Shown here in pieces: positions 879 through 43,265 of a stretch of DNA of 64,000 bases. The notes under the pieces are model-generated. The model saw only the letters and a list, made by a program, of their open reading frames with translations, was not told the origin of the DNA and ran no database searches. This stretch comes from a virus: the IMG/VR virus record IMGVR_UViG_3300013212_000061, positions 1 to 64,000 of that record; one strand, given 5' to 3'. How positions within the stretch are numbered: the first letter of the stretch is position 1; each line of letters begins with the position of its first letter. The translations under genes and the position numbers were made by a program.

Positions 879-2168
879 ATGAAAACCAAAATCCTTAATT
901 TTAATCAGTTCATAACTGAAAGGTATGAAGTTAAATTGAATAAGCAATTGTTATTAGAGGGTGGAGCAGCCGGACATATGTCCCATCCATTCGATAATAA
1001 TGACCTAACATTTGGAGACTTCAAGAATATGATTATTGGTGGACTTCAAGGTGAACTAAACTTTGAAGAGGAACCTACTGAAAAAACCGACGGTCAAAAC
1101 GTATTTGCAACTATTCAAAATGGTGAGGTTAAATTTGCCAGAAATAAAACTGAGTTGCAAAACCCTATGAGTCTTAAGGATTTCCAAAATAAATTTGAGG
1201 GACATGCAAGTAAACTGGTACAAGATACTTTTCAATTTGCAGCCGCTGATTTAGCAACCCTGCTCATAAAGTTACCGGCAAAAACACAAGAGGAAGTGTT
1301 CCAGAATGGGCTGAACTTCATGAATATGGAGTTGATATATTCTGCAAACCCTAATGTAATTCACTATGATGTTGATGTAATTCAATTCCATGGTATCAAG
1401 AAGACTGATGGAGCTGGAAATATAGTTGGAGATGACAATAACGCGGCAAAAAGTGTTAGTGGAGTTCTTAAATCTTTAAACGCTGATGTTGGAAAAACAT
1501 TTACAATAATTCCACCGCAAGTTATTAAACTACAAAAAGATATAAATTTTGAAGAGAATCAGTCTAAATTCTTAGGAAAACTTGATGCTCTTAAAAATCG
1601 ATATAATTTAACTGATGCTGATGCAGTTGCCCGCTACCATGAAATGTGGTGGAGAGAACAAATTGAAGCAGCATTCGGTGACCTACCACAAAATATTAAA
1701 GAGGGACTATTATTAAGATGGGCTTATGACGACAAGAAAACCCTAAATATGCGTTCATTAGACAAAGAATTAACTCCAGCACAGGCTGAAGCAGTTAAGA
1801 AGTTTGACAAAGAGGACGTTAAAAAGAAATTCAAAGAAAACATCCGCCCATTTGAAGACCTATTCTTAGAATTGGGAAGTGTTATCTTAAAGAATGCTAG
1901 TAATTTTGTTGCTGCCTCTCCAGATAAAGAAATGCAAAGGCTACATAACGAAATTAGAACTGAAGCCGACAAGATTAAATTAAATGGAGATGTAACTCAA
2001 ATCGAAAAGGTTGCAAAAGAACTTGATAGACTTGAAAGAATTGGAGGAATCCAATCTATTATACCGACTGAAGGTATTGTATTTTCATACAAAGGACACA
2101 TGTACAAATTAACAGGAACATTCGCTGCAATAAATTCACTACTAGGTATTATTAAATATGGAAGATAA
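879..2168 (+). CDS. Ligase-like nucleotidyltransferase with capsid-targeting-like leader
   Basis: A 429-residue protein starting MKTKILNFNQFITER, a leader of the T4 capsid-targeting type with a possible FITE|R cut. The sequence EKTDGQN (residues 68-74) matches motif I of covalent nucleotidyltransferases (RNA/DNA ligases), with K69 as the candidate AMP-accepting lysine. MELIYSANPNVIHYD fits the middle motifs. TEGIVF (397-402) and YKLTG (409-413) fit motifs IV and V. It ends in KYGR. The family is probably ATP-dependent RNA or DNA ligase-like; the substrate is unknown. It lies in an operon with the following ligase/NMNAT-like fusion. If the leader works, the enzyme is packaged in the capsid. 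Confidence 0.75.
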   Translation: MKTKILNFNQFITERYEVKLNKQLLLEGGAAGHMSHPFDNNDLTFGDFKNMIIGGLQGELNFEEEPTEKTDGQNVFATIQNGEVKFARNKTELQNPMSLKDFQNKFEGHASKLVQDTFQFAAADLATLLIKLPAKTQEEVFQNGLNFMNMELIYSANPNVIHYDVDVIQFHGIKKTDGAGNIVGDDNNAAKSVSGVLKSLNADVGKTFTIIPPQVIKLQKDINFEENQSKFLGKLDALKNRYNLTDADAVARYHEMWWREQIEAAFGDLPQNIKEGLLLRWAYDDKKTLNMRSLDKELTPAQAEAVKKFDKEDVKKKFKENIRPFEDLFLELGSVILKNASNFVAASPDKEMQRLHNEIRTEADKIKLNGDVTQIEKVAKELDRLERIGGIQSIIPTEGIVFSYKGHMYKLTGTFAAINSLLGIIKYGR

Positions 2169-2169
2169 A

Positions 2170-2235
2170 ATGAAACACATAAAATTATTTGAAGAGTTTG
2201 TTGAAGCTGAACTTAATGAATCAACAATTAATTAA
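2170..2235 (+). CDS. Leader peptide with capsid-targeting motif, out of frame with next gene
   Basis: ATG at 2170, one base after the previous stop, encodes MKHIKLFEEFVEAELNES and stops at 2235 after 21 codons. It is an almost perfect copy of the leader used by neighbouring genes. The large enzyme that should follow it lies in the +1 frame. Either a 1-nt indel has detached the leader from the enzyme, or a +1 frameshift near 2225-2235 joins them, or this is a sequencing error. Confidence 0.6.
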   Translation: MKHIKLFEEFVEAELNESTIN

Positions 2236-4120
2236 TAAAAACAAAGAGATGGCACTACAAAAATTAAGAGAGTATTTTAACGAAACCAATAGAGAAACCT
2301 TTATTGATATGTTAAAAAATAGGGTGTTAGTAACTGAGAAGGTTGCAGCTCCCACATTTCTTGTTAAAAGAAATCTTGATGGGTTTGAATATTTTAAATC
2401 TTCAAATTCAGACAAATTAAATCTAATTGATAGAACTATTATCTCCCTATATGAGATTGCAATCAATTACATGCAAAGTTTGCCAAGTGGAACTAAAAAC
2501 CAAATGCCAATTGATTGGAGATTTGGATTTGAATACCTACCTGAAGTTAAAGCATCTAAAATTAAATACGAAAGAACTCCAAAAAATAACCTGATCTTGA
2601 CTCACATTCAACAAATGGGAGAGGGCAATAAGGTTAAGAAAACTATAAATGACCCAGTTATTCTAAACAAATGGGCTAAAATTCTTGATGTTCAACCGCC
2701 AAGCATCTTATTTGACGGTTACCTATCTCAACTGCAGCGAGATGAACTATTAGAATTATTGTCAATGAGTGATAGACAATTTAGTGAATCATTCGACTAT
2801 TTAGAAGAAACAAAAGACAAATTAAGTTTTACTAGTAGAATTATTAAACTTTTTAATCCTAGCGCCTTTGAAACTGCCCTAAATCCTGACATTGATGCAG
2901 AATTTGATGGATTGGTTGTTAATTTTATTGATGAAAAATCTATAAAATCTTTTAAATTAGAAGATTTTATCAGAAAGTCTACTGTTGATAACTCTTCAAG
3001 CCACACGTATCAAATTGCAGTGACGGATTTCTTAGAATTTGCAACTCAATTTAAAATTGATGAAGTTCAATTAGAAGACGAAAGAGCTGACTACAGATAT
3101 CTTAAAATAATGTCAATAATGTTTAATGAATATGTTGACAAGAACTCATCTAAATATATTGGAGTTAATTTTGAAAGCGCTGAATTTTCATCAGCACAGT
3201 CTTTTAAATTAAATACAAAATATATTACCGATGAAAAGACACTTAAATATACGTCAAATGATATTTTAGCTGAACTACTAAAAATGGTTTTAAGTTCTTT
3301 TAGAAAGAAACGAACTAAGACTTCAGATTTAATAGATAAGGACACTATGGCACGCCTAAATGAAATCATCGAAAAAATTAATAAGAAAATATTTGTGGAA
3401 AGTACAGAAGAAAATGCAATATATGACTATCAAAACTTTATGTTGCGTGATAAAATAAAATCTTCAGTTAACCTAAACGAGGCGCTTAAACTTACACATG
3501 TTGAACAAGGAAAACAGCCAGTAAATATGTTTGTTGGGCGATTCCAGCCATTTACACTTGGACACGCTAAAGTTTTAGAGACTATTCATAAAGAGAATGG
3601 CTACCCAGTAGTTGTATTTCTTGTTAAAGCAAAAACCAAAAAGAAAGGTGATGAATTTAGCAGACCGTACGACGAAAAGACACAAATTGAAATGTTTAAA
3701 AACGTTCAAAAACAATATTCATTCCTTAAAGAGATATATGTAATTCCAACCGGAGGTATCGATATTATGTTTAATGAAATGAGACCTAAATACGAACCAG
3801 TACTTTGGGGAACGGGAAGTGATAGAATGACAAGTTATGGTTATCAAGTTAATAATGACGCTTACAGAGATCAATTAAACTGTAGAGCTGATTTTGGACT
3901 TTTTGAAATTCCAAGAACCGACGATGATATTTCGGCTACCGCAGTCCGAAATGCCCTATTAGACGGTGATGAGAAACTATTCAACAATTTAACGCCAAAG
4001 GCAGTTCATTCGATGTATAATGAACTTAAATCTAAAATTGAAGATGCTATGGGAGTAGTTGCTGAAGGATTTACCAATGAGATTATGACATTCAAACAAT
4101 ATATTAACAAAGATATATAA
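2216..4120 (+). CDS. Ligase-like domain fused to NMN adenylyltransferase-like domain
   Basis: A 634-residue protein from ATG 2216 (the frame is also open from a TTG at 2189). The N-terminal half looks like a covalent nucleotidyltransferase: NLDGFEYF near 53, EFDGLVVNF near 230, then KSFKLED. The motif I lysine is not in its usual place (NLDG rather than KxDG), so ligase activity is doubtful. The C-terminal part (about 436-600) is a cytidylyltransferase/NMNAT-type domain with GRFQPFTLGH and ISATAVR. It ends in MTFKQYINKDI, which itself resembles the leader motif. The pairing suggests nucleotide or NAD chemistry at RNA or protein ends; the actual reaction is unknown. The capsid-type leader is upstream in another frame. 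Confidence 0.75.
   Translation: MNQQLINKNKEMALQKLREYFNETNRETFIDMLKNRVLVTEKVAAPTFLVKRNLDGFEYFKSSNSDKLNLIDRTIISLYEIAINYMQSLPSGTKNQMPIDWRFGFEYLPEVKASKIKYERTPKNNLILTHIQQMGEGNKVKKTINDPVILNKWAKILDVQPPSILFDGYLSQLQRDELLELLSMSDRQFSESFDYLEETKDKLSFTSRIIKLFNPSAFETALNPDIDAEFDGLVVNFIDEKSIKSFKLEDFIRKSTVDNSSSHTYQIAVTDFLEFATQFKIDEVQLEDERADYRYLKIMSIMFNEYVDKNSSKYIGVNFESAEFSSAQSFKLNTKYITDEKTLKYTSNDILAELLKMVLSSFRKKRTKTSDLIDKDTMARLNEIIEKINKKIFVESTEENAIYDYQNFMLRDKIKSSVNLNEALKLTHVEQGKQPVNMFVGRFQPFTLGHAKVLETIHKENGYPVVVFLVKAKTKKKGDEFSRPYDEKTQIEMFKNVQKQYSFLKEIYVIPTGGIDIMFNEMRPKYEPVLWGTGSDRMTSYGYQVNNDAYRDQLNCRADFGLFEIPRTDDDISATAVRNALLDGDEKLFNNLTPKAVHSMYNELKSKIEDAMGVVAEGFTNEIMTFKQYINKDI
4112..4120 (+). promoter_or_regulatory. 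Late-promoter-like box GATATATAA
   Basis: The box overlaps the stop codon of the upstream gene (the codons for D, I and stop) and lies 23 nt before the ATG at 4144. The same box precedes many structural genes in this window. Confidence 0.5.
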
Positions 4121-4143: not shown

Positions 4144-5685
4144 ATGAATTTTAATGAATTCCTAAATGAAGGTAGTACTTTAATTAAAGAATCAGTAGTT
4201 AATAAAAGAAACATCACAATCAAAAGACAATATACTGATAAAAATCCTGCAATTACTGTAGGTAAAGCAGCTAACGTTCGTAACAGAATGCTAGAAGCTA
4301 TTAAAGATGGTAAACTTTCTCAAGAAGATTTTAATAATATTCTTAAAGAAATGACCACAGATTCTAAAAGATGGTTGAGAAGAAACGCTCAGTATTTTAA
4401 TGTATCTGAAGACGGAATTACCCTATCAAAAACAGGTTCAAGAATCCTTAAAAATGTTATGGTTTCCGAAGCAACTACAAAGGCACCAAAGATTTGGGTT
4501 CCTGGAGGATTTGATAAAGAAATTTCAAAATACCCAAATAGTAAAATTACTAGAAAAAACGTATTTGATGCGGCACTTAAATGGGATGTTAATCCTGAAG
4601 AAGCAATTTCTTACGTAGAATATGGTTGGGCAGTAAACTTAAGCGAAAACAAAAACGATATGAAAACAAAATTTATTTACGAATCTTTTACAGAATTTGT
4701 TAAAAACCGGTTAAACGAAGGTAACTTAAACGAGGCATTTAAAAGTGCTAAATTGGCTAATCTTTTTGCAGTAGGAAGTGCCGGTACTAAAAACCTTGCA
4801 GGAGCATTCTATAACTTCTCAAAACTTGCAATTGACCAAATTCAAGACTATGATATTATTGAAATGGACCCTCAAACTGCCCGTAAAGAAAAAAGAGCTA
4901 ATGGTATTTACTTTTATGTAGTAACTAATCAAAAGACAAATCCATTCGCTGAAACTAGTAACCCATCAACTTGGAATAATGGACTTATTCAATCAAATAC
5001 TCTATTAGCAATAACAAGTGGGCAAAACGAATGGTACTCAACCGCTTATAGTAAATACGCAGGAGGTACTGAAACTTTAAAAATTACTAAAACAAGAGAG
5101 GATGCATCTGGATTTGATAAAAGAGACAGTAAAAGATATGATGGTTCTGGAATTACATCTCTTACCAAAGTAGCTGAATTGGCCGATATTGCATATGTTA
5201 TTGACTTAGACGTTCTTAAGGCGCGCTATTCTACAGCATCATTAGTATCAAAAAGAGCTGCAGATAAAAGTGGAGCTACTGCCTTTCAAAACGACAAAGA
5301 TTTTAAAGCGGCAAACAAGGCGCGTTATAACGAAATCTTAGCCCAAAAAGCATCTGAACTTCCAATGGATTCACTTGTATTAGGGGCTATTGATACTCTT
5401 GCTACTCAAATCAAAGATGCCTTAACTAAAGGTGAAAAAGGAAGATATGGAGAACTTATTGTTGGATTAGACCCTAAAGGTAGAGAAATCAAAATGAGTG
5501 ATGCATCTAACCTAATGAGAAACATCCTAGACGAGTACAATAGATACGTTGGATACGCTGTTGAATCTGAAAAAGAAGTTTCAACTGGATATAGTGGAAA
5601 ATTCTACGAAGATAGAATAAAAGAAAGTGCTAAAACAATCACTGATTACGTTAAGAAAGTAGACGCTAAAAATTACGCTTGGTAA
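4144..5685 (+). CDS. Putative internal virion protein with two capsid-targeting-like motifs
   Basis: A 513-residue protein starting MNFNEFLNEGSTLIKES. A second leader-like segment, ESFTEFVKNRLNEGNLNEAF, begins just after an internal ATG at 4660 (residue 173). The protein therefore looks like two cargo modules in one frame: a basic N-terminal module (residues 1-170) and a larger C-terminal module (residues 200-513) with mixed helix and sheet. The internal ATG could also start a separate product. No enzyme motif was recognised. FLNE|G, RLNE|G and NLNE|A fit the gp21-type cleavage rule. It sits in a run of leader-bearing genes and has its own late-promoter-like box upstream. Confidence 0.65.
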   Translation: MNFNEFLNEGSTLIKESVVNKRNITIKRQYTDKNPAITVGKAANVRNRMLEAIKDGKLSQEDFNNILKEMTTDSKRWLRRNAQYFNVSEDGITLSKTGSRILKNVMVSEATTKAPKIWVPGGFDKEISKYPNSKITRKNVFDAALKWDVNPEEAISYVEYGWAVNLSENKNDMKTKFIYESFTEFVKNRLNEGNLNEAFKSAKLANLFAVGSAGTKNLAGAFYNFSKLAIDQIQDYDIIEMDPQTARKEKRANGIYFYVVTNQKTNPFAETSNPSTWNNGLIQSNTLLAITSGQNEWYSTAYSKYAGGTETLKITKTREDASGFDKRDSKRYDGSGITSLTKVAELADIAYVIDLDVLKARYSTASLVSKRAADKSGATAFQNDKDFKAANKARYNEILAQKASELPMDSLVLGAIDTLATQIKDALTKGEKGRYGELIVGLDPKGREIKMSDASNLMRNILDEYNRYVGYAVESEKEVSTGYSGKFYEDRIKESAKTITDYVKKVDAKNYAW

Positions 5686-7655: not shown

Positions 7656-9083
7656 ATGGAATTCTTAGACGCATTAAGACAAGAAGATATGGTAACTGAA
7701 AACGGGATGGCGACAAACTCAACTTCGTTGAATGCATGTGTTGACCTTTTCTTTAACATTGGAGCTATGAGAGGACAAGACAAACAACGTTTGATTGCAA
7801 CGTTCTCTAAAGCATTTAATGAGGACCCTAAGCGCGCTATGAAATTACTTTTCTGGGCCAGAGATGTCCGTGGAGGAGCTGGAGAACGTCAAGTTTTCAA
7901 AGACATTTTAGTTTATTTGGCAGAAAACCATGACTTGGTACTTAAACCAAACTTACATTTAATTTCAGAGTATGGTCGTTGGGATGATTTATTATCTTTA
8001 GCAGGAACATATCTTGAAAAAGATGCATTCACCCTAATTTCAGATGCATTAATCAACGAAAATGGTTTATGTGCTAAATGGATGCCACGTAAAGGAGCTG
8101 TAGCCGAAAAGTTACGTAAATTTACTGGAATGTCCCCAAAACAGTACAGAAAATCTCTTGTAGGTTTAACTAGTGTTGTTGAAACTAAAATGTGTGCTGG
8201 AGACTGGAATTCTATCGACTTCGGTAAATTACCATCAGTCGCTTCAGCAAGATACCAAAAAGCCTTTGGTAAAAATGCATACGAAAGTTATTCAGCGTAC
8301 ATTGCTTCTCTTGTAAAAGGTGAGGCTAAGATTAATGCAGGTGCAGTTTATCCTTACGATATTATTACATCATTAGAACGTGGAAATGCAACCGTAGCAA
8401 ACGAACAATGGAAAGCCTTGCCAAACTATTTGGAAGGTGCAAACGATATGATTTTACCAGTAGTAGACGTTTCAGGTTCTATGTCAAGTCCAGCTGGTGG
8501 AAGTAAAACTGTAACTTGTATGAATGTTGCAATCTCATTGGGTCTTTATATTTCTGAAAGAAATGAAGGTCCTTTCAAAGATGCATTTATTACATTCTCA
8601 AGTAAACCACAGTTACAAGTATTAAGTGGTTCACTGAATGATCGCTACACACAGATGTCGGACTCTGATTGGGGAATGTCAACAGATCTTGAGGCTACAT
8701 TCAAACTGATTTTAAATCAGGCCACTAAGCACAAATTGTCTCAAGACAAAATGCCAAACAAAATCTTAATCCTATCGGATATGGAGTTTAACACGGCAAC
8801 TGGAAGGGGTTATAGAAGAGAAGGAGGTACATGGAATCCAACTGCTCAGCAGTTGATTGAGAAAATGTACAACGACGCAGGTTACAAAATTCCTCAAATT
8901 GTTTACTGGAATATTCAATCCCGAAACGGAGGAGTACCAGTTGCATTTGATGCTAAAGGAACTGCATTAGTTTCAGGATTCTCTCCAGCAATTATGACAA
9001 GTTTACTTGGAGGAGATATTGAATCTCCACAACAAATAATGGATAAAACAATTTTGAGTGAGAGATACGCTCCAATTGTATAA
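7656..9083 (+). CDS. TROVE/vWA-like (Ro60-related, DUF2828-type) protein
   Basis: A 475-residue protein. The N-terminal ~260 residues are helical repeats with signatures seen in the TROVE/DUF2828 group (LFWARDVRGGAGERQVF, YGRWDDLL). The C-terminal part is a von Willebrand A domain with an intact MIDAS, DVSGSMS, at about 270-277, and ILSDMEF further on. Ro60 proteins bind misfolded RNAs and Y RNAs and, in bacteria, often have a Y RNA gene next door. Here a gene-free, structured stretch of about 350 nt with its own terminator follows immediately. Assignment to this superfamily is fairly secure; RNA binding is inference. Confidence 0.75.
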   Translation: MEFLDALRQEDMVTENGMATNSTSLNACVDLFFNIGAMRGQDKQRLIATFSKAFNEDPKRAMKLLFWARDVRGGAGERQVFKDILVYLAENHDLVLKPNLHLISEYGRWDDLLSLAGTYLEKDAFTLISDALINENGLCAKWMPRKGAVAEKLRKFTGMSPKQYRKSLVGLTSVVETKMCAGDWNSIDFGKLPSVASARYQKAFGKNAYESYSAYIASLVKGEAKINAGAVYPYDIITSLERGNATVANEQWKALPNYLEGANDMILPVVDVSGSMSSPAGGSKTVTCMNVAISLGLYISERNEGPFKDAFITFSSKPQLQVLSGSLNDRYTQMSDSDWGMSTDLEATFKLILNQATKHKLSQDKMPNKILILSDMEFNTATGRGYRREGGTWNPTAQQLIEKMYNDAGYKIPQIVYWNIQSRNGGVPVAFDAKGTALVSGFSPAIMTSLLGGDIESPQQIMDKTILSERYAPIV

Positions 9084-14862: not shown

Positions 14863-15330
14863 ATGGCAAATATAGACAATCAATGTAAAGACCTGGAAGT
14901 TAATGACTTCTATTCAGATTCGACCACTCACTTGGCGGATATCATGGAAAACCAAAAGAAAATGCAAGAGCAAACTTACGGTTTTAATTTCGAAAACATG
15001 ACACTTAGAGAGATTATGAACTTTTGGCATGTCAACACTCATGCTGTTATTGATGAAATTCATGAAATGACCGATGCCCTTGGAGGTATTAAAGATGGCA
15101 GTGGAAATGCAGTTTGGAAATACTGGAAAAAAGACTTTTCAAAATATGAAACCATGAAAATCAGCGACCTATCAGAAGGTGATAAAAAGGAATTGTATAT
15201 GGAATGGGTTGACATAATGCACTTCTTTATAAATTATGCAGCATCTATTGGATTAGACGCGAAAACAGCCTACAATTATTACTTTGCGAAAGCAGAAGCA
15301 AATGTTCAACGTCAGAAAAATAACTATTAA
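14863..15330 (+). CDS. dUTPase, all-alpha dimeric type
   Basis: 155 residues. The pattern WHVNTHAVIDEIHEMTDAL, then KKELYMEWVDIMHFFINYA and a KAEANVQRQ tail matches the all-alpha NTP pyrophosphatase (dUTPase_2/MazG-like) family, with the Mg-binding ExxE...ExxD spacing. It would hydrolyse dUTP (or dCTP) to the monophosphate. The ATG of the polymerase gene shares the last base of its stop codon, so the two are translationally coupled. Confidence 0.75.
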   Translation: MANIDNQCKDLEVNDFYSDSTTHLADIMENQKKMQEQTYGFNFENMTLREIMNFWHVNTHAVIDEIHEMTDALGGIKDGSGNAVWKYWKKDFSKYETMKISDLSEGDKKELYMEWVDIMHFFINYAASIGLDAKTAYNYYFAKAEANVQRQKNNY

Positions 15331-16727
15331 TGATACTCGACATCGAACAGCGTGAAAAAGATGTTATCATTTCATACTACAATGACAAGGGAGAAGTAGC
15401 ATTCAAACAATACCCAGTGGATAAATTCCAAAATTGGTATGTTTGTGATGACAAAGACAAAGCGGCCAGTCCAGACTATAAAAACTGGGATGGCCGCCCT
15501 GTTAAACTAGGATATGGAAAACAATTCAATAAGTTTTCTATTCTTTATTTTTTAGATAATCTTTCAGAGAAGGACAAAAAAGACCTAACAGCATATAATA
15601 TGCCAAAAACCTATTTTGTCGATATTGAAACTGAAATTGTTGACGGCTTTCCAAAAGCCGAAGAGGCCAAAAGTAGAATTCTTTCATTCTCAATAATTAC
15701 TCCAGACCGTAAAGCAATCGTGCTTGGACTGGAAGATATGGCTTCAGATAAAATCCAAAAGATTCAAGATGATACTAATGAGTATTTCAAAGACTTTGAC
15801 CAGGACTGGGAATTTAAGTACCATAAGTTCAAGTCTGAGTACGACATGGTTTACACATTCTTAATGAAATTCTTACCAAAGTTTCCAATGATGACTGGGT
15901 GGAATTTTATCAACTATGACTGGCAATATATTGTTAATCGTTGTAAAAGACTTCAAATTGATATTAAAGAAGTTGGTATGACAAATTCAATCGATCATAC
16001 TGATGGTCGACCTCTTCATATCGGAATTCTTGACTACATGCAATTGTATGACAAATATGACCGAACGGTAAAAGTTAAAGAATCCAACTCATTAGATTAT
16101 GTTTCTAGTCAAGTTTTGAATGTTAACAAAATCAAGTTCACTGGTTCACTACAGGACTTATACCGTGATAACTTTGTTAAGTACATATATTATAACGTTG
16201 TCGATTCAGTGCTTGTGTATTACATTGACCAGAAGTTGAAGTCGATGGAGGTACTATTAACACTGGCAAATATTACAAATATGCCCTTATATAAAGCAAG
16301 TTCTCCAGTGGCAGTTACTGAATCTATTATGGCCAGAAAATTGGCTGAGCAAGGAATGCGAATTGGAAGTGAAGAGAAATCTGATAGTCAAAAAGATGGC
16401 CAATACGCTGGAGCATTCGTAAAAGAACCAATCTTAGGATTCTATGAAGGTGTAAGTGCATTCGATTTTGCTTCACTGTATCCTTCGATCATGAGACAAT
16501 TCAATATATCTCCAGATGCATACATCGAAAAGATTTATAAGAGTGAAATTGATGAACGTAGAAAGAACAAAGAGGTTATAGTTTGTGATAATGGTGTAGT
16601 TTACAAAACTGAAGATTCAATCTTAAGAAAGATATTAAGTGACCTATATGCACAGCGTAAAGATTATAAAAAAACTTCTTATGAATACTTCACAAAAGCT
16701 GACCGGTTGAAAAAACTGCTCCAATAA
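15330..16727 (+). CDS. 43A: DNA polymerase family B, N-terminal part (gp43-like, split gene)
   Basis: A 465-residue protein with the 3'-5' exonuclease motifs FVDIETE (about 97-103), GWNFINYDWQYI, and NVVDS, followed by polymerase motif A, DFASLYPSI (about 378-386). It ends in the fingers region (YFTKADRLKKLLQ) and lacks motifs B and C. Those are encoded 6.4 kb downstream at 23148. The two parts together (863 residues) are close to T4 gp43 (898). The break falls between motifs A and B. No intron or endonuclease remnant lies at the break; ribonucleotide reductase follows. Confidence 0.9.
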   Translation: MILDIEQREKDVIISYYNDKGEVAFKQYPVDKFQNWYVCDDKDKAASPDYKNWDGRPVKLGYGKQFNKFSILYFLDNLSEKDKKDLTAYNMPKTYFVDIETEIVDGFPKAEEAKSRILSFSIITPDRKAIVLGLEDMASDKIQKIQDDTNEYFKDFDQDWEFKYHKFKSEYDMVYTFLMKFLPKFPMMTGWNFINYDWQYIVNRCKRLQIDIKEVGMTNSIDHTDGRPLHIGILDYMQLYDKYDRTVKVKESNSLDYVSSQVLNVNKIKFTGSLQDLYRDNFVKYIYYNVVDSVLVYYIDQKLKSMEVLLTLANITNMPLYKASSPVAVTESIMARKLAEQGMRIGSEEKSDSQKDGQYAGAFVKEPILGFYEGVSAFDFASLYPSIMRQFNISPDAYIEKIYKSEIDERRKNKEVIVCDNGVVYKTEDSILRKILSDLYAQRKDYKKTSYEYFTKADRLKKLLQ

Positions 16728-23147: not shown

Positions 23148-24344
23148 ATGACAATCGAAGAACTAATACTAAAACCAGAGAGTGATTTATCACAAGATGA
23201 AATTAAAACATTGGTTGAGCATTATTCTATGTTGTCAGCAAAGTTTGGAGCCTATGAACAAGCAGTAAAAGTAATGCTTAACTCGATCTATGGCGCCTTC
23301 GGTAACAAATGGTTTCACTTTTTTAATATAGACATCGCAGAATCTATTACCCTACAGGGACAGTCTGCGATTCTATATTCTGAGAAGATACTAAATAAGT
23401 ATTTTCAAGAGTTTTGGACTAAAGACAAGGCAGTTCATGAGTTTTTTAACATTCAAGTTAAAAATAAACTTGTGCGACCTTCAGTAGTCTATATTGATAC
23501 CGATTCTTGTTATGTACAGTTTGAAGAGATGTATGAATCTATTGAATGGCTTGGAGACAAGATATCGATTGACCAATTCATTATGAAATTGTATAACTTT
23601 AGACTTAAAGATTATATTTTTAAGTGTATGGAGAAATATGCAGAAGCCACTAATACTGAAAACTTCCTCCAGTTTGAATTGGAAACGATTGCCTACTCTG
23701 GAATTTGGTTAGCTAAGAAAAAATACCTGCAAAATATTGCTTGGGAAGATAAAATTGGAATTGAAGAACGTTACCCTTCACTTAAGAAGGTTAAAACTAT
23801 TGGTTTTGATACAATTCAAAGTTCAACACCAGCTCTTGCAAGAAAGCAGTTGACCGATATTCTTAAATTGATTCTTTCAGAAAAACCTACAGCGTCCCTA
23901 TTAAAAAGACTAGTAGATTATTTGAAACAATGTAAAAAAGAATTCCAATTAGCAAGTGTTGATGAGATATGTTTTAATAAAAGAACTAACAATATCGAAA
24001 AATATATTGTAGATGATACGGTAGAATTTCAATATGGTTTAAAATGTCCACCAAACGTTAAAGCTGCAGGATTTTATAATTTCTTAATGAATCAAAATCC
24101 AAAGTTCAAGAACAAGTATAAGATGATTGGTAATGGTGAAAAGCTAAAACTATATCATTGTAAACATGGGACATGTGAAATATTTGCATACCAACCAGGA
24201 GCTCATCCTTATGAAATTGCCCCTCAAGTTGACTATGAAACACAATTCGAAAAGAGTGTTATAGATCCATTGAACCGGGTTCTTACCGCAGTTGGTTTAC
24301 ATACACTAAATAGAAACTTAATTTATTCAACTTCATTATTTTAA
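23148..24344 (+). CDS. 43B: DNA polymerase family B, C-terminal part (gp43-like, split gene)
   Basis: A 398-residue protein starting with a short new N-terminus (MTIEELILKPESDLSQDE). It then carries motif B, NSIYGAFGN (about 45-53), motif C, YIDTDSCYV (about 115-123), and the thumb, with a C-terminal NRNLIYSTSLF that may bind the clamp. It lacks the exonuclease and motif A, which are at 15330-16727. The two proteins must assemble for activity. It is in an operon behind the putative clamp. Confidence 0.9.
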   Translation: MTIEELILKPESDLSQDEIKTLVEHYSMLSAKFGAYEQAVKVMLNSIYGAFGNKWFHFFNIDIAESITLQGQSAILYSEKILNKYFQEFWTKDKAVHEFFNIQVKNKLVRPSVVYIDTDSCYVQFEEMYESIEWLGDKISIDQFIMKLYNFRLKDYIFKCMEKYAEATNTENFLQFELETIAYSGIWLAKKKYLQNIAWEDKIGIEERYPSLKKVKTIGFDTIQSSTPALARKQLTDILKLILSEKPTASLLKRLVDYLKQCKKEFQLASVDEICFNKRTNNIEKYIVDDTVEFQYGLKCPPNVKAAGFYNFLMNQNPKFKNKYKMIGNGEKLKLYHCKHGTCEIFAYQPGAHPYEIAPQVDYETQFEKSVIDPLNRVLTAVGLHTLNRNLIYSTSLF

Positions 24345-41345: not shown

Positions 41346-43265
41346 ATGACTAATAACTTACTGATCTTAGAAAGATCGTCAACGGAATTAGAGTTTAAAC
41401 AAGATGGTGGAACCTATGTTCTAGAGGGTATCTTTGGAGAAATCGATAAGAAAAATCGTAATAACCGAATCTATACTGAATCTGAATACTTACCACAGAT
41501 TGAAGCTCTACAGGCAAAAATTAAATCATCAAAGTTACTAGGTGAATTAGATCACCCACAAACATTTGATGTTTCCTTAAAAAATGTGTCACACATTATT
41601 GAAGAGCTTACTTATGATACCAATACAAAGCAAGTTAAAGGACGTATTAGACTATTAGATACTGATGCTGGAAGACAGGCAAAAGCCCTTGTAGACGCTG
41701 GTGTTCCCCTACAAATTTCAAGTAGAGCAGCTGGTGCAGTTGAATCTAATGGAACTGTAAAAATCAAACAATTGTTTACTTATGATTTAGTTGCAGACCC
41801 TGGGTTTGAAAATGCTGAATTGAAAAGAGTTAATGAATCTTATGGATTTGTTAATGAAGGAAACGACCTATTTATTTACGAGATAAATAATACAAATGAA
41901 AAACAATCAATCGAAAATATAAACGAAACAAAAATGGCAGAGTCTAAATTTATTACGACTGAGGATTTTAATAAGTACTCTAAATATCTTTCTGAAGAAA
42001 TCAAATCTATTAAAGAAAGTATGAATTCTTTAACAGAATCAGAGTCTACTAGTTCTCAATTAGAAACACTTAAAGAATACACTGATTATTTAGCTAAGAA
42101 ATTAGATGAATCAATCGCATATTCAGAACACATTGCTGAAAAAGCAGACCAAGGTATTCAATACTCAGAAAATCTTGCAGAGAAAGTTGACCAAGGTATT
42201 CAATATTCTGAGCATATCGCTGAAAGCGTTGATGCTATTAAAAACTACACTAACTATTTAGCTGAATCTTATAATGAAGGTTCTACTTCTTACGATAACT
42301 TAATTAAATATACTGAATATTTAAGAGAAAACTTAGAGAAAGTAACTGAATATGCAGAATACGTTGCAGAAACTGTTAACACTAACCTATTATTAGAAGA
42401 CGAAGCAGGTTTACCAGCTGAAGACCTTAAAGATGAAACAGAAGATGTTTCTCCAGATGTAGTAGATGCTGATGGTAACGTAATCACTGGAAAACCAGAA
42501 GATGTAGAAGGTGAATTAGACCTTAAAGGAGTAGACGGTGCCGGTAAAGAAGTTACTGAAGCAAATGATGGAACTGAAGCAGGTTTACCAGCTGAAGACA
42601 TTAAAAAAGCTACTAAAGATGTTACAGTAGATGTAGTTGATGCTGATGGTAATGTAATCACTGGAAAACCAGAAGATGTAGAAAAAGACTTAGAACTTGC
42701 TGGTAAAGGAGACGCTGCTGGTAAACAAGTTGACCAGATGGAGGCTTACAAAAATTCAATCACTTCTAAATTAGAAGCTATTGTTGAAAAAGTAAATGCT
42801 AAAAAATCAGAAAATCCAGCATTCTTTAAATTTATCTCTGAAGAGAAAGTAAATGAATTTAATGCATTATCTACTGAAGAAAAATCTAAAGTTGTAACTG
42901 CTGTTGAAGGTCGCGGTTACCTTACTGAAGGACAAATATTAGCCCTATGGAACACTTCATTATCAGGAGTTGTAGAAACTAATAATGCTCCTACAGTTAT
43001 TAAATTAATGCCAACTGAATACCATGATACTTGGGCTAAATGTTCTGAAGGTAAGAAAAATCAAATCATAGCACAATCTAAATATCACAAACTAGAAACA
43101 CCTTACCAAGTTGCAAACTTCTGGCAAACTAGAGACCTTAGAGAGGTTGCTCCAGTAATGGAAAAAATTGCTATGGTAAATGAATCTACTGTTGAAGAAG
43201 TTAAAACTTTAGGTTATGATGCATCTGAATTAGGAGCTGAAATTGCAAAAAGATTTAGAAAATAA
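41346..43265 (+). CDS. Prohead protease fused to scaffold (gp21-gp22-like)
   Basis: A 639-residue protein. The first ~180 residues are a gp21-type serine protease: GELDHP with His70, and ISSRAAG with the nucleophile Ser at 125 or 126. After a linker comes a scaffold: coiled-coil repeats (YSEHIAEKADQGIQYSENLA, about 250-340), two 58-residue acidic repeats (about 353-465), and a helical C-terminus. T4 encodes protease and scaffold as separate adjacent genes 21 and 22; here they share one frame. It would act inside the prohead, cut itself and clip leader-bearing proteins after [LI]xE. A separate scaffold start inside cannot be excluded (ATG at 41935). Confidence 0.8.
   Translation: MTNNLLILERSSTELEFKQDGGTYVLEGIFGEIDKKNRNNRIYTESEYLPQIEALQAKIKSSKLLGELDHPQTFDVSLKNVSHIIEELTYDTNTKQVKGRIRLLDTDAGRQAKALVDAGVPLQISSRAAGAVESNGTVKIKQLFTYDLVADPGFENAELKRVNESYGFVNEGNDLFIYEINNTNEKQSIENINETKMAESKFITTEDFNKYSKYLSEEIKSIKESMNSLTESESTSSQLETLKEYTDYLAKKLDESIAYSEHIAEKADQGIQYSENLAEKVDQGIQYSEHIAESVDAIKNYTNYLAESYNEGSTSYDNLIKYTEYLRENLEKVTEYAEYVAETVNTNLLLEDEAGLPAEDLKDETEDVSPDVVDADGNVITGKPEDVEGELDLKGVDGAGKEVTEANDGTEAGLPAEDIKKATKDVTVDVVDADGNVITGKPEDVEKDLELAGKGDAAGKQVDQMEAYKNSITSKLEAIVEKVNAKKSENPAFFKFISEEKVNEFNALSTEEKSKVVTAVEGRGYLTEGQILALWNTSLSGVVETNNAPTVIKLMPTEYHDTWAKCSEGKKNQIIAQSKYHKLETPYQVANFWQTRDLREVAPVMEKIAMVNESTVEEVKTLGYDASELGAEIAKRFRK
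42402..42740 (+). repeat. Tandem 174-nt coding repeat in scaffold
   Basis: Copy 1 starts at 42402 and copy 2 at 42576. Both encode EAGLPAED then a VVDADGNVITGKPEDVE segment. The repeats are acidic and probably flexible. Confidence 0.85.

Follow-up and report, generated by a model that had tools for sequence, protein, structure and literature searches.

An RNA-ligase-like gene beside a ligase-like/NMNAT-like fusion gene in a T4-like phage contig: a probable head-packaged RNA end-repair module

The stretch of DNA analyzed here (the window) comprises positions 1-64000 of an 80-kb IMG/VR contig, IMGVR_UViG_3300013212_000061. Two adjacent genes near its beginning, one RNA-ligase-like (gene 1) and one joining a T4 RNA ligase 2 (Rnl2)-like domain to a nucleotidyltransferase (NTase) of the nicotinamide mononucleotide adenylyltransferase (NMNAT) type (gene 2; Table 1), rather probably form a head-packaged, protease-matured RNA (tRNA) end-repair module whose NTase may supply NAD+. 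The window has T4-like features (a major head protein, a portal, a tail sheath and a head maturation protease), and the products of both genes would be internal proteins of the phage head. A leader-type peptide, N-terminal in gene 1 and C-terminal in gene 2, would bring the two proteins into the prohead. A T4-type protease would then trim them at hxE↓G/A sites (the arrow marks the predicted cut), splitting gene 2 into its Rnl2-fold and NMNAT-type domains, and the mature proteins would enter the cell together with the DNA. Once there, gene 1 would act as an active RNA ligase, auto-adenylated on K69, that seals broken RNA, the likeliest substrates being tRNAs, of the host or the phage, that anti-phage nucleases have cleaved; relatives would supply the extra steps of CCA rebuilding, phosphatase and exonuclease, and the NMNAT-type domain would make NAD+ or a similar dinucleotide, either supporting a NAD-dependent step or offsetting NAD depletion. 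An initial annotation, made from the letters of the DNA, had suggested that the pair could modify RNA or protein ends, or make or use NAD, as infection begins, and such an early role on RNA ends or NAD is plausible; its observations were partly confirmed and its interpretation partly supported, as detailed below.

Ligase motifs and predicted folds

Both open reading frames (ORFs) exist as annotated, and the stretches singled out in gene 1, EKTDGQN and TEGIVF...YKLTG, are ligase motifs I, IV and V. Motif I (EK[TLM]DG; here E68-K69-T-D-G) and the motif IV-V pair (E398-G-I-V-F and K410-L-T-G) occur in 116/116 unique gene-1 homologues, R88-N89 (motif Ia) and E151 (motif III) are also invariant, and the motif order is that expected for ligases; at the level of sequence, ligase-like motifs and their conservation are thus clear. 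Viral contigs contain several hundred relatives of this family. In one relative, L032, the ligase active site is interrupted precisely at the K69/T70 junction by a split intein, with an endonuclease-like ORF intervening (L032:508-3012), and inteins favor such active-site positions in active enzymes.

Since gene 1 has no significant sequence match in Pfam, PHROGs or the PDB, its assignment is based on motifs, fold and context. The AlphaFold (AF2) model, built on an alignment of 59 sequences (predicted local distance difference test, pLDDT, 86.8), shows a large insert of helices and a leader that is disordered, with pLDDT below 50 at residues 1-6 and 14-34; the alignments used for the structure models exclude rows from the phages collection (three for gene 1, one for gene 2). 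In Foldseek searches against the PDB, RNA ligases came first, the best match being the adenylyltransferase domain of a fungal tRNA ligase (9qw7; E=5.6e-4, prob 0.99, template modeling score, TM, ~0.22), followed by others that include T4 Rnl1 and an archaeal RNA ligase, and the top 18 matches were all RNA or DNA ligases. Against viral models, 'cytidyltransferase-like' phage proteins (1.7e-37) and several uncharacterised families preceded the RNA ligases. These rankings modestly support a ligase fold for gene 1.

The fold of the gene 2 N-domain is more easily recognized. Foldseek matched it to T4 RNA ligase 2 (2hvr, E=2e-7, prob 1.00), in a model with pLDDT 80.1 that drops below 50 at the linker (residues 404-431), and a ligase-type fold is thus supported for both proteins, modestly so for gene 1 with its low TM. 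At the sequence level, neither the Rnl2 profile (hhalign E=0.14) nor gene 1 (hhalign) matched this domain significantly. The EFDGLVV and KSFKLED of the initial annotation hold as nucleotidyltransferase motifs IV and V, to which VTEK51 is now added as motif I. Its lysine is K in 99/107 rows and N, D or Q in 8/107 (a few sequences are included twice among the rows), the replacements being found in L017, L002, L137, L141 and the huge-phage proteins L190 and L192; L017 lacks it despite 78% identity. The catalytic residues expected across homologues are therefore kept in gene 1 but not in the gene 2 N-domain, which, because its motif-I lysine varies, may have activity in certain phages and lack it elsewhere.

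The fusion of gene 2 to an NMNAT-type domain was borne out. The C-domain carries HxGH-type and ISxTxxR motifs (GRFQPFTLGH, ISATAVR), matches CTP_transf_like in Pfam (PF01467, 1.8e-7), and has NMNATs as best matches among PDB sequence profiles (1f9a, 2.6e-5; 2qjo, 5.9e-4) and NadM among structures (Foldseek 2qjo, 3.6e-6; 1m8g, TMt 0.71). Gene 2 also matches PHROGs 395 and 3041. Pfam gave no match to a Nudix domain in gene 2.

Leaders, protease-like sites and head packaging

The motif F..F[LIVM].E stands near the N-terminus of 5/65 window genes, which is above chance: 1000 shuffles gave 0.28 such genes on average and never more than 2. A leader resembling those of T4 internal proteins (MK..F..FLxE; the T4 ipII and ipIII leaders are MKTYQEFIAE) is present in 89/89 stand-alone gene-1 homologues, and in T4 such capsid-targeting sequences carry internal proteins into the core (PMC3012670). 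A leader had been annotated before both genes, which is correct for gene 1; in gene 2 the tag is C-terminal (...ES..MTFEQFINK), with a leader-like F..F[LIVM] there in 77/84 homologues, and the leader ORF that precedes gene 2 is out of frame with it. In both genes the borders between domains are marked by sites of protease type (hxE↓G/A): [ILV]xE↓GG marks the start of the gene-1 domain in 114/116 homologues, even where the upstream sequence is unrelated, and [LIVMF]xE[AGS] is found in the gene 2 linker in 82/84. The processing enzyme for both is presumably the protease encoded at 41346-43265.

In a 410-kb contig (L245), gene 1 with the leader MKSLIQYISE adjoins the protease and major capsid genes, and its neighbors share the leader type (MKSxxxYIxE). 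This contig and one of 400 kb (L246) had been binned as rumen Firmicutes/Erysipelotrichaceae metagenome-assembled genomes, and both look like huge phages binned with bacteria. On the NTase side, S-CREM2 gp154 is a HIGH NTase with the leader MKNFSSFLTE and matches to PHROGs 395 (2.4e-59) and 3041, both of which are also matched by gene 2; it was detected by mass spectrometry in CsCl-purified virions, although the authors warn of possible carry-over (PMC10665884), and NMNAT-like proteins have been repeatedly reported from cyanophage virions (PMC9602691). Taken as sequence evidence, the leaders and sites strongly suggest that the products of genes 1 and 2 are packaged in the head.

Pair linkage and domain fusions

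The gene pair is conserved and is adjacent in nearly all loci of relatives: among the IMG/VR loci, which are partly redundant, the two genes are less than 100 bp apart in 91 and within 3 kb in 55, and five have no pair. The whole pair stands as a tandem duplicate with diverged copies in L044:5986-13227. In more distant phages (Mel-JY01, LR756508, L153-L180 and L246), a HIGH NTase and gene 1 form a single protein with gene 1 at the C-terminus. A 1907-aa protein of L242 (516-6239) unites a CCA-adding tRNA nucleotidyltransferase (PF01743, 1.5e-29; phrog_2244, 1.6e-57), a HIGH NTase and gene 1, and also carries a ParB-like module and an unassigned middle region. A search with its CCA domain returned 20 contigs (L242, L250-L268), with the same fusion in 13, neighboring genes in 6 and 1 truncated where its contig stops. 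When the domains are on separate genes, the CCA protein contains an HD domain as well. Other gene-1 proteins are joined to a HAD domain (L160 and relatives, and L246; phrog_415, 9e-12), for which 'polynucleotide phosphatase' is a tentative name because phrog_415 also matches other HAD proteins, or, in L168, to a DEDD exonuclease of the DNA-polymerase type (RNase_T; phrog_192, 2e-12), and a ParB-like module is present in four proteins. The associations with CCA-adding, HAD, exonuclease and HIGH NTase domains favor RNA end repair. A KptA/ART partner is not claimed, the ART-like stretch of L162 being sub-threshold (PF15633, E=0.0036) and the middle region of L242 being without assignment.

Gene 2 is split in L126 (9423-13363), L051, L070, L076 and L079, where the NMNAT domain belongs to a neighboring gene and is joined at INE↓ALK to an N-terminal module otherwise found in the gene at 4144-5685, as if modules had been exchanged at protease sites.

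Alternative explanations

Several points weigh against the head-packaged RNA end-repair module. The second motif-V lysine of gene 1 is replaced by threonine, its TM-scores against ligases are low (~0.2) with a single PDB match beyond 1e-3, and the profile-profile comparison with T4 Rnl2 (hhalign) was not significant (E ~0.1), though it still aligns motifs I and Ia (EKTDGQNVFATIQNGEVKFARNK against a 24-letter stretch). A separate, conventional RNA ligase is encoded on the same contig beyond the window (G000:72696-73289; PF09414, 1.3e-19). The CCA-fusion contigs are one related group (66-99% identical in the query domain), and domains joined in head polyproteins may have come together by being packaged jointly, with no shared pathway.

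Covalent nucleotidyltransferase motifs alone do not separate RNA from DNA ligases, and gene 1 could instead belong to a head-delivered DNA ligase module that seals nicks or ends of the incoming genome, the NMNAT regenerating NAD+ from NMN if the ligase is NAD+-dependent. The direct NTase-ligase fusion would suit such cofactor recycling, as the DNA-polymerase-type exonuclease of L168 would suit DNA; however, the best structural matches are RNA ligases, one lineage has a CCA-adding tRNA enzyme as partner, and Pfam found neither the Ia NAD-binding nor the adenylation domain of NAD+-dependent DNA ligases, which makes this account unlikely. An improbable reading, too, is that the system is mainly an NAD+ countermeasure in which the NMNAT restores NAD+ depleted by host defenses, with ligase domains that merely accompany it or serve as nucleotide-binding carriers. 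The recurrence of NMNAT-like proteins in cyanophage virions (PMC9602691, PMC10665884) speaks for it, and so do four near relatives that encode NadV and have gene 2 as their sole PF01467 protein; yet gene 1 retains a complete invariant active site, and the module is kept where no NadV was found. Every NadM phage is reported to have NadV as well (PMC9503650), and the gene 2 NTase behaves unlike that NadM because the module also occurs where NadV was not detected, namely in Mel-JY01, LR756508 and contigs of 212 and 175 kb (which may be incomplete). Ordinary NadV-NadM salvage was therefore not accepted as the role of the NMNAT, several large records carrying the module with no NadV detected; a NadV-dependent salvage misfits those cases. 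It is quite unlikely, finally, that an RNA ligase and NMNAT are made in the cell during infection and remain unpackaged, the leaders being a shared N-terminal feature with another role. The protease and capsid genes of the contig do lie some 39 kb away from the pair, but its leader is like those of T4 internal proteins and kept in 89/89, protease-like sites stand at domain borders, and virions were found to contain a homologous NTase with a leader (PMC10665884).

The head-packaged RNA end-repair module remains our preferred explanation. A bolder form of it, which we put forward tentatively, is a virion-packaged polyprotein system in which injected heal-and-seal enzymes, accompanied by an NAD+-making enzyme of their own, would reverse tRNA breakage by host defenses before phage gene expression; the set would comprise the RNA ligase plus, depending on lineage, a CCA-adding/HD enzyme, a HAD phosphatase or an exonuclease. 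Known phage RNA repair, such as that by T4 Rnl1/Pnkp, needs expression after infection, and anticodon nucleases and NAD-depleting defenses can act early; if the proposal is true, a head-delivered ligase/NTase module would act before expressed repair, and the recurrent NMNAT-like proteins of cyanophage virions would be explained. The analysis also yields an RNA-ligase-like family that is open to testing and is repeatedly linked to CCA-adding enzymes, and the leader plus hxE sites offer a simple rule to find further injected enzymes. Searches of the open-licence literature found no paper on the ligase partner, the C-terminal tag, the fusion with the CCA enzyme or the whole set. Within those searches, the view that no such system had been described stands for the pair, but NMNAT-like proteins have already been reported from cyanophage virions (PMC9602691, PMC10665884).

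Gene models and neighboring features

The program-listed ORF of gene 2 (2189-4120) begins at a TTG that we consider wrong, because M21-A22-L23 (in the numbering of that ORF) are invariant and residues 1-20 are unmodelled, which sets the start at about 2249. The short leader ORF between the two genes is probably the remnant of a leader-bearing gene, since L008 has one of 159 aa at the same position (L008 7280-7759).

Table 1. Coordinates of the gene pair, its parts and related features in the window
Feature	Coordinates	Strand	Details
Gene 1, RNA-ligase-like covalent nucleotidyltransferase	879..2168	+	429 aa; motifs K69xDG, R88, E151, E398, K410; helical insert ~186-397
Gene-1 leader	879..959	+	MKTKILNFNQFITE↓...LLLE↓GGA; resembles a capsid-targeting peptide; two hxE sites of protease type
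Orphan leader ORF	2158..2235	+	MEDKMKHIKLFEEFVEAELNESTIN followed by stop; 25 codons, between genes 1 and 2, frame differs from gene 2
Gene 2, corrected start	2249..4120	+	623 aa; Rnl2-like N-domain, NMNAT-type HIGH NTase domain and C-terminal tag
Gene 2 N-domain	2249..3388	+	T4 RNA ligase 2 fold; motif I VTEK51, IV DGLV, V K256
Gene 2 disordered linker	3458..3487	+	[LIVMF]xE↓[AGS] site (LNE↓AL); predicted inter-domain protease cut
NMNAT-type HIGH nucleotidyltransferase domain	3506..4054	+	GRFQPFTLGH ... ISATAVR; PF01467, PDB and Foldseek matches
Gene 2 C-terminal leader-like tag	4058..4120	+	AEGFTNEIMTFKQYINKDI; F..F[LIVM] kept in homologues
Next leader-bearing gene	4144..5685	+	MNFNEFLNE↓G; N-terminal modules longer, exchanged in relatives
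T4-type head maturation protease fused to a scaffold-like region	41346..43265	+	phrog_207, 2.5e-44; repeated [YF]..[YF][LV].E sites

The window further encodes, 3.5 kb downstream of the pair, a DUF2828/DUF7788 protein (7656-9083; phrog_850 'RNA-binding protein', 8e-155), which we take to be related to the Ro60/TROVE proteins that accompany bacterial RNA repair. Its DNA polymerase appears to be split into two genes, an N-terminal one at 15330-16727 (phrog_2062) and a C-terminal one at 23148-24344 (phrog_1918), with ribonucleotide reductase and other genes between them. In L184 (G003), the NadV gene adjoins, by eye, a macro-domain-like ORF, a neighborhood that suggests further NAD/ADP-ribose functions in this phage group.

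Comparison with known systems

By motif, Campylobacter phage CPt10_0251, Xanthomonas X1 and Stenotrophomonas Marzo likewise combine a HIGH NTase with a ligase-like KxDG domain, in one protein or in adjoining ones; their loci differ in being unannotated and very diverged, with Pol-beta-like and ParB-like genes added in X1 and Marzo. Ackermannviridae-like operons (L193:1477-5164, L195:1128-6001) contain a Pol-beta-like NTase, a protein that by eye is restriction-endonuclease-like, a KxDG ligase-like protein, a HIGH NTase and a ParB-like 'virion-associated protein', and the HIGH NTase of this type of operon is annotated as 'ADP ribosyltransferase' in Marzo.

With NadM/NadV salvage (PMC9503650) the module has in common the NadM-type HIGH adenylyltransferase and, in some relatives, NadV; it differs by the fusion to a ligase domain, by having no Nudix domain and by several records in which NadV was not found. 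The nearest known proteins on the NTase side are the NMNAT-like/cytidylyltransferase proteins of cyanophage virions (S-CREM2 gp154, S-SCSM1 ORF91, S-CBWM1). The S-CREM2 protein shares the HIGH NTase, both PHROGs, the leader type and, by its detection, the virion location proposed here, whereas it is not directly matched by the gene 2 NTase profile, and no ligase domain or partner has been reported for the cyanophage proteins.

Rnl2 and other RNA ligases (Rnl1, fungal tRNA ligase) resemble gene 1 in fold ranking and motif order, with EKIHGTN in Rnl2 against EKTDGQN in gene 1, which departs from them by a helical insert of ~200 residues, by having a single motif-V Lys and by the absence of a significant match between profiles; the gene 2 N-domain, unlike Rnl2, is without a universal catalytic Lys. 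The closest parallel for delivery is given by T4 IPI-III and Alt, with their capsid-targeting sequence and gp21 cleavage, Alt being a precedent for head-delivered enzymes. The MK..F..F(I/L)xE leader, the T4-type (gp21-type) protease encoded in the genome and the cluster of small leader-bearing genes are common to both systems, whereas here the putative cargo consists of an NMNAT-type fusion and an enzyme resembling RNA ligases, one of the two tags stands at the C-terminus, and the protease-like sites also divide enzyme domains.

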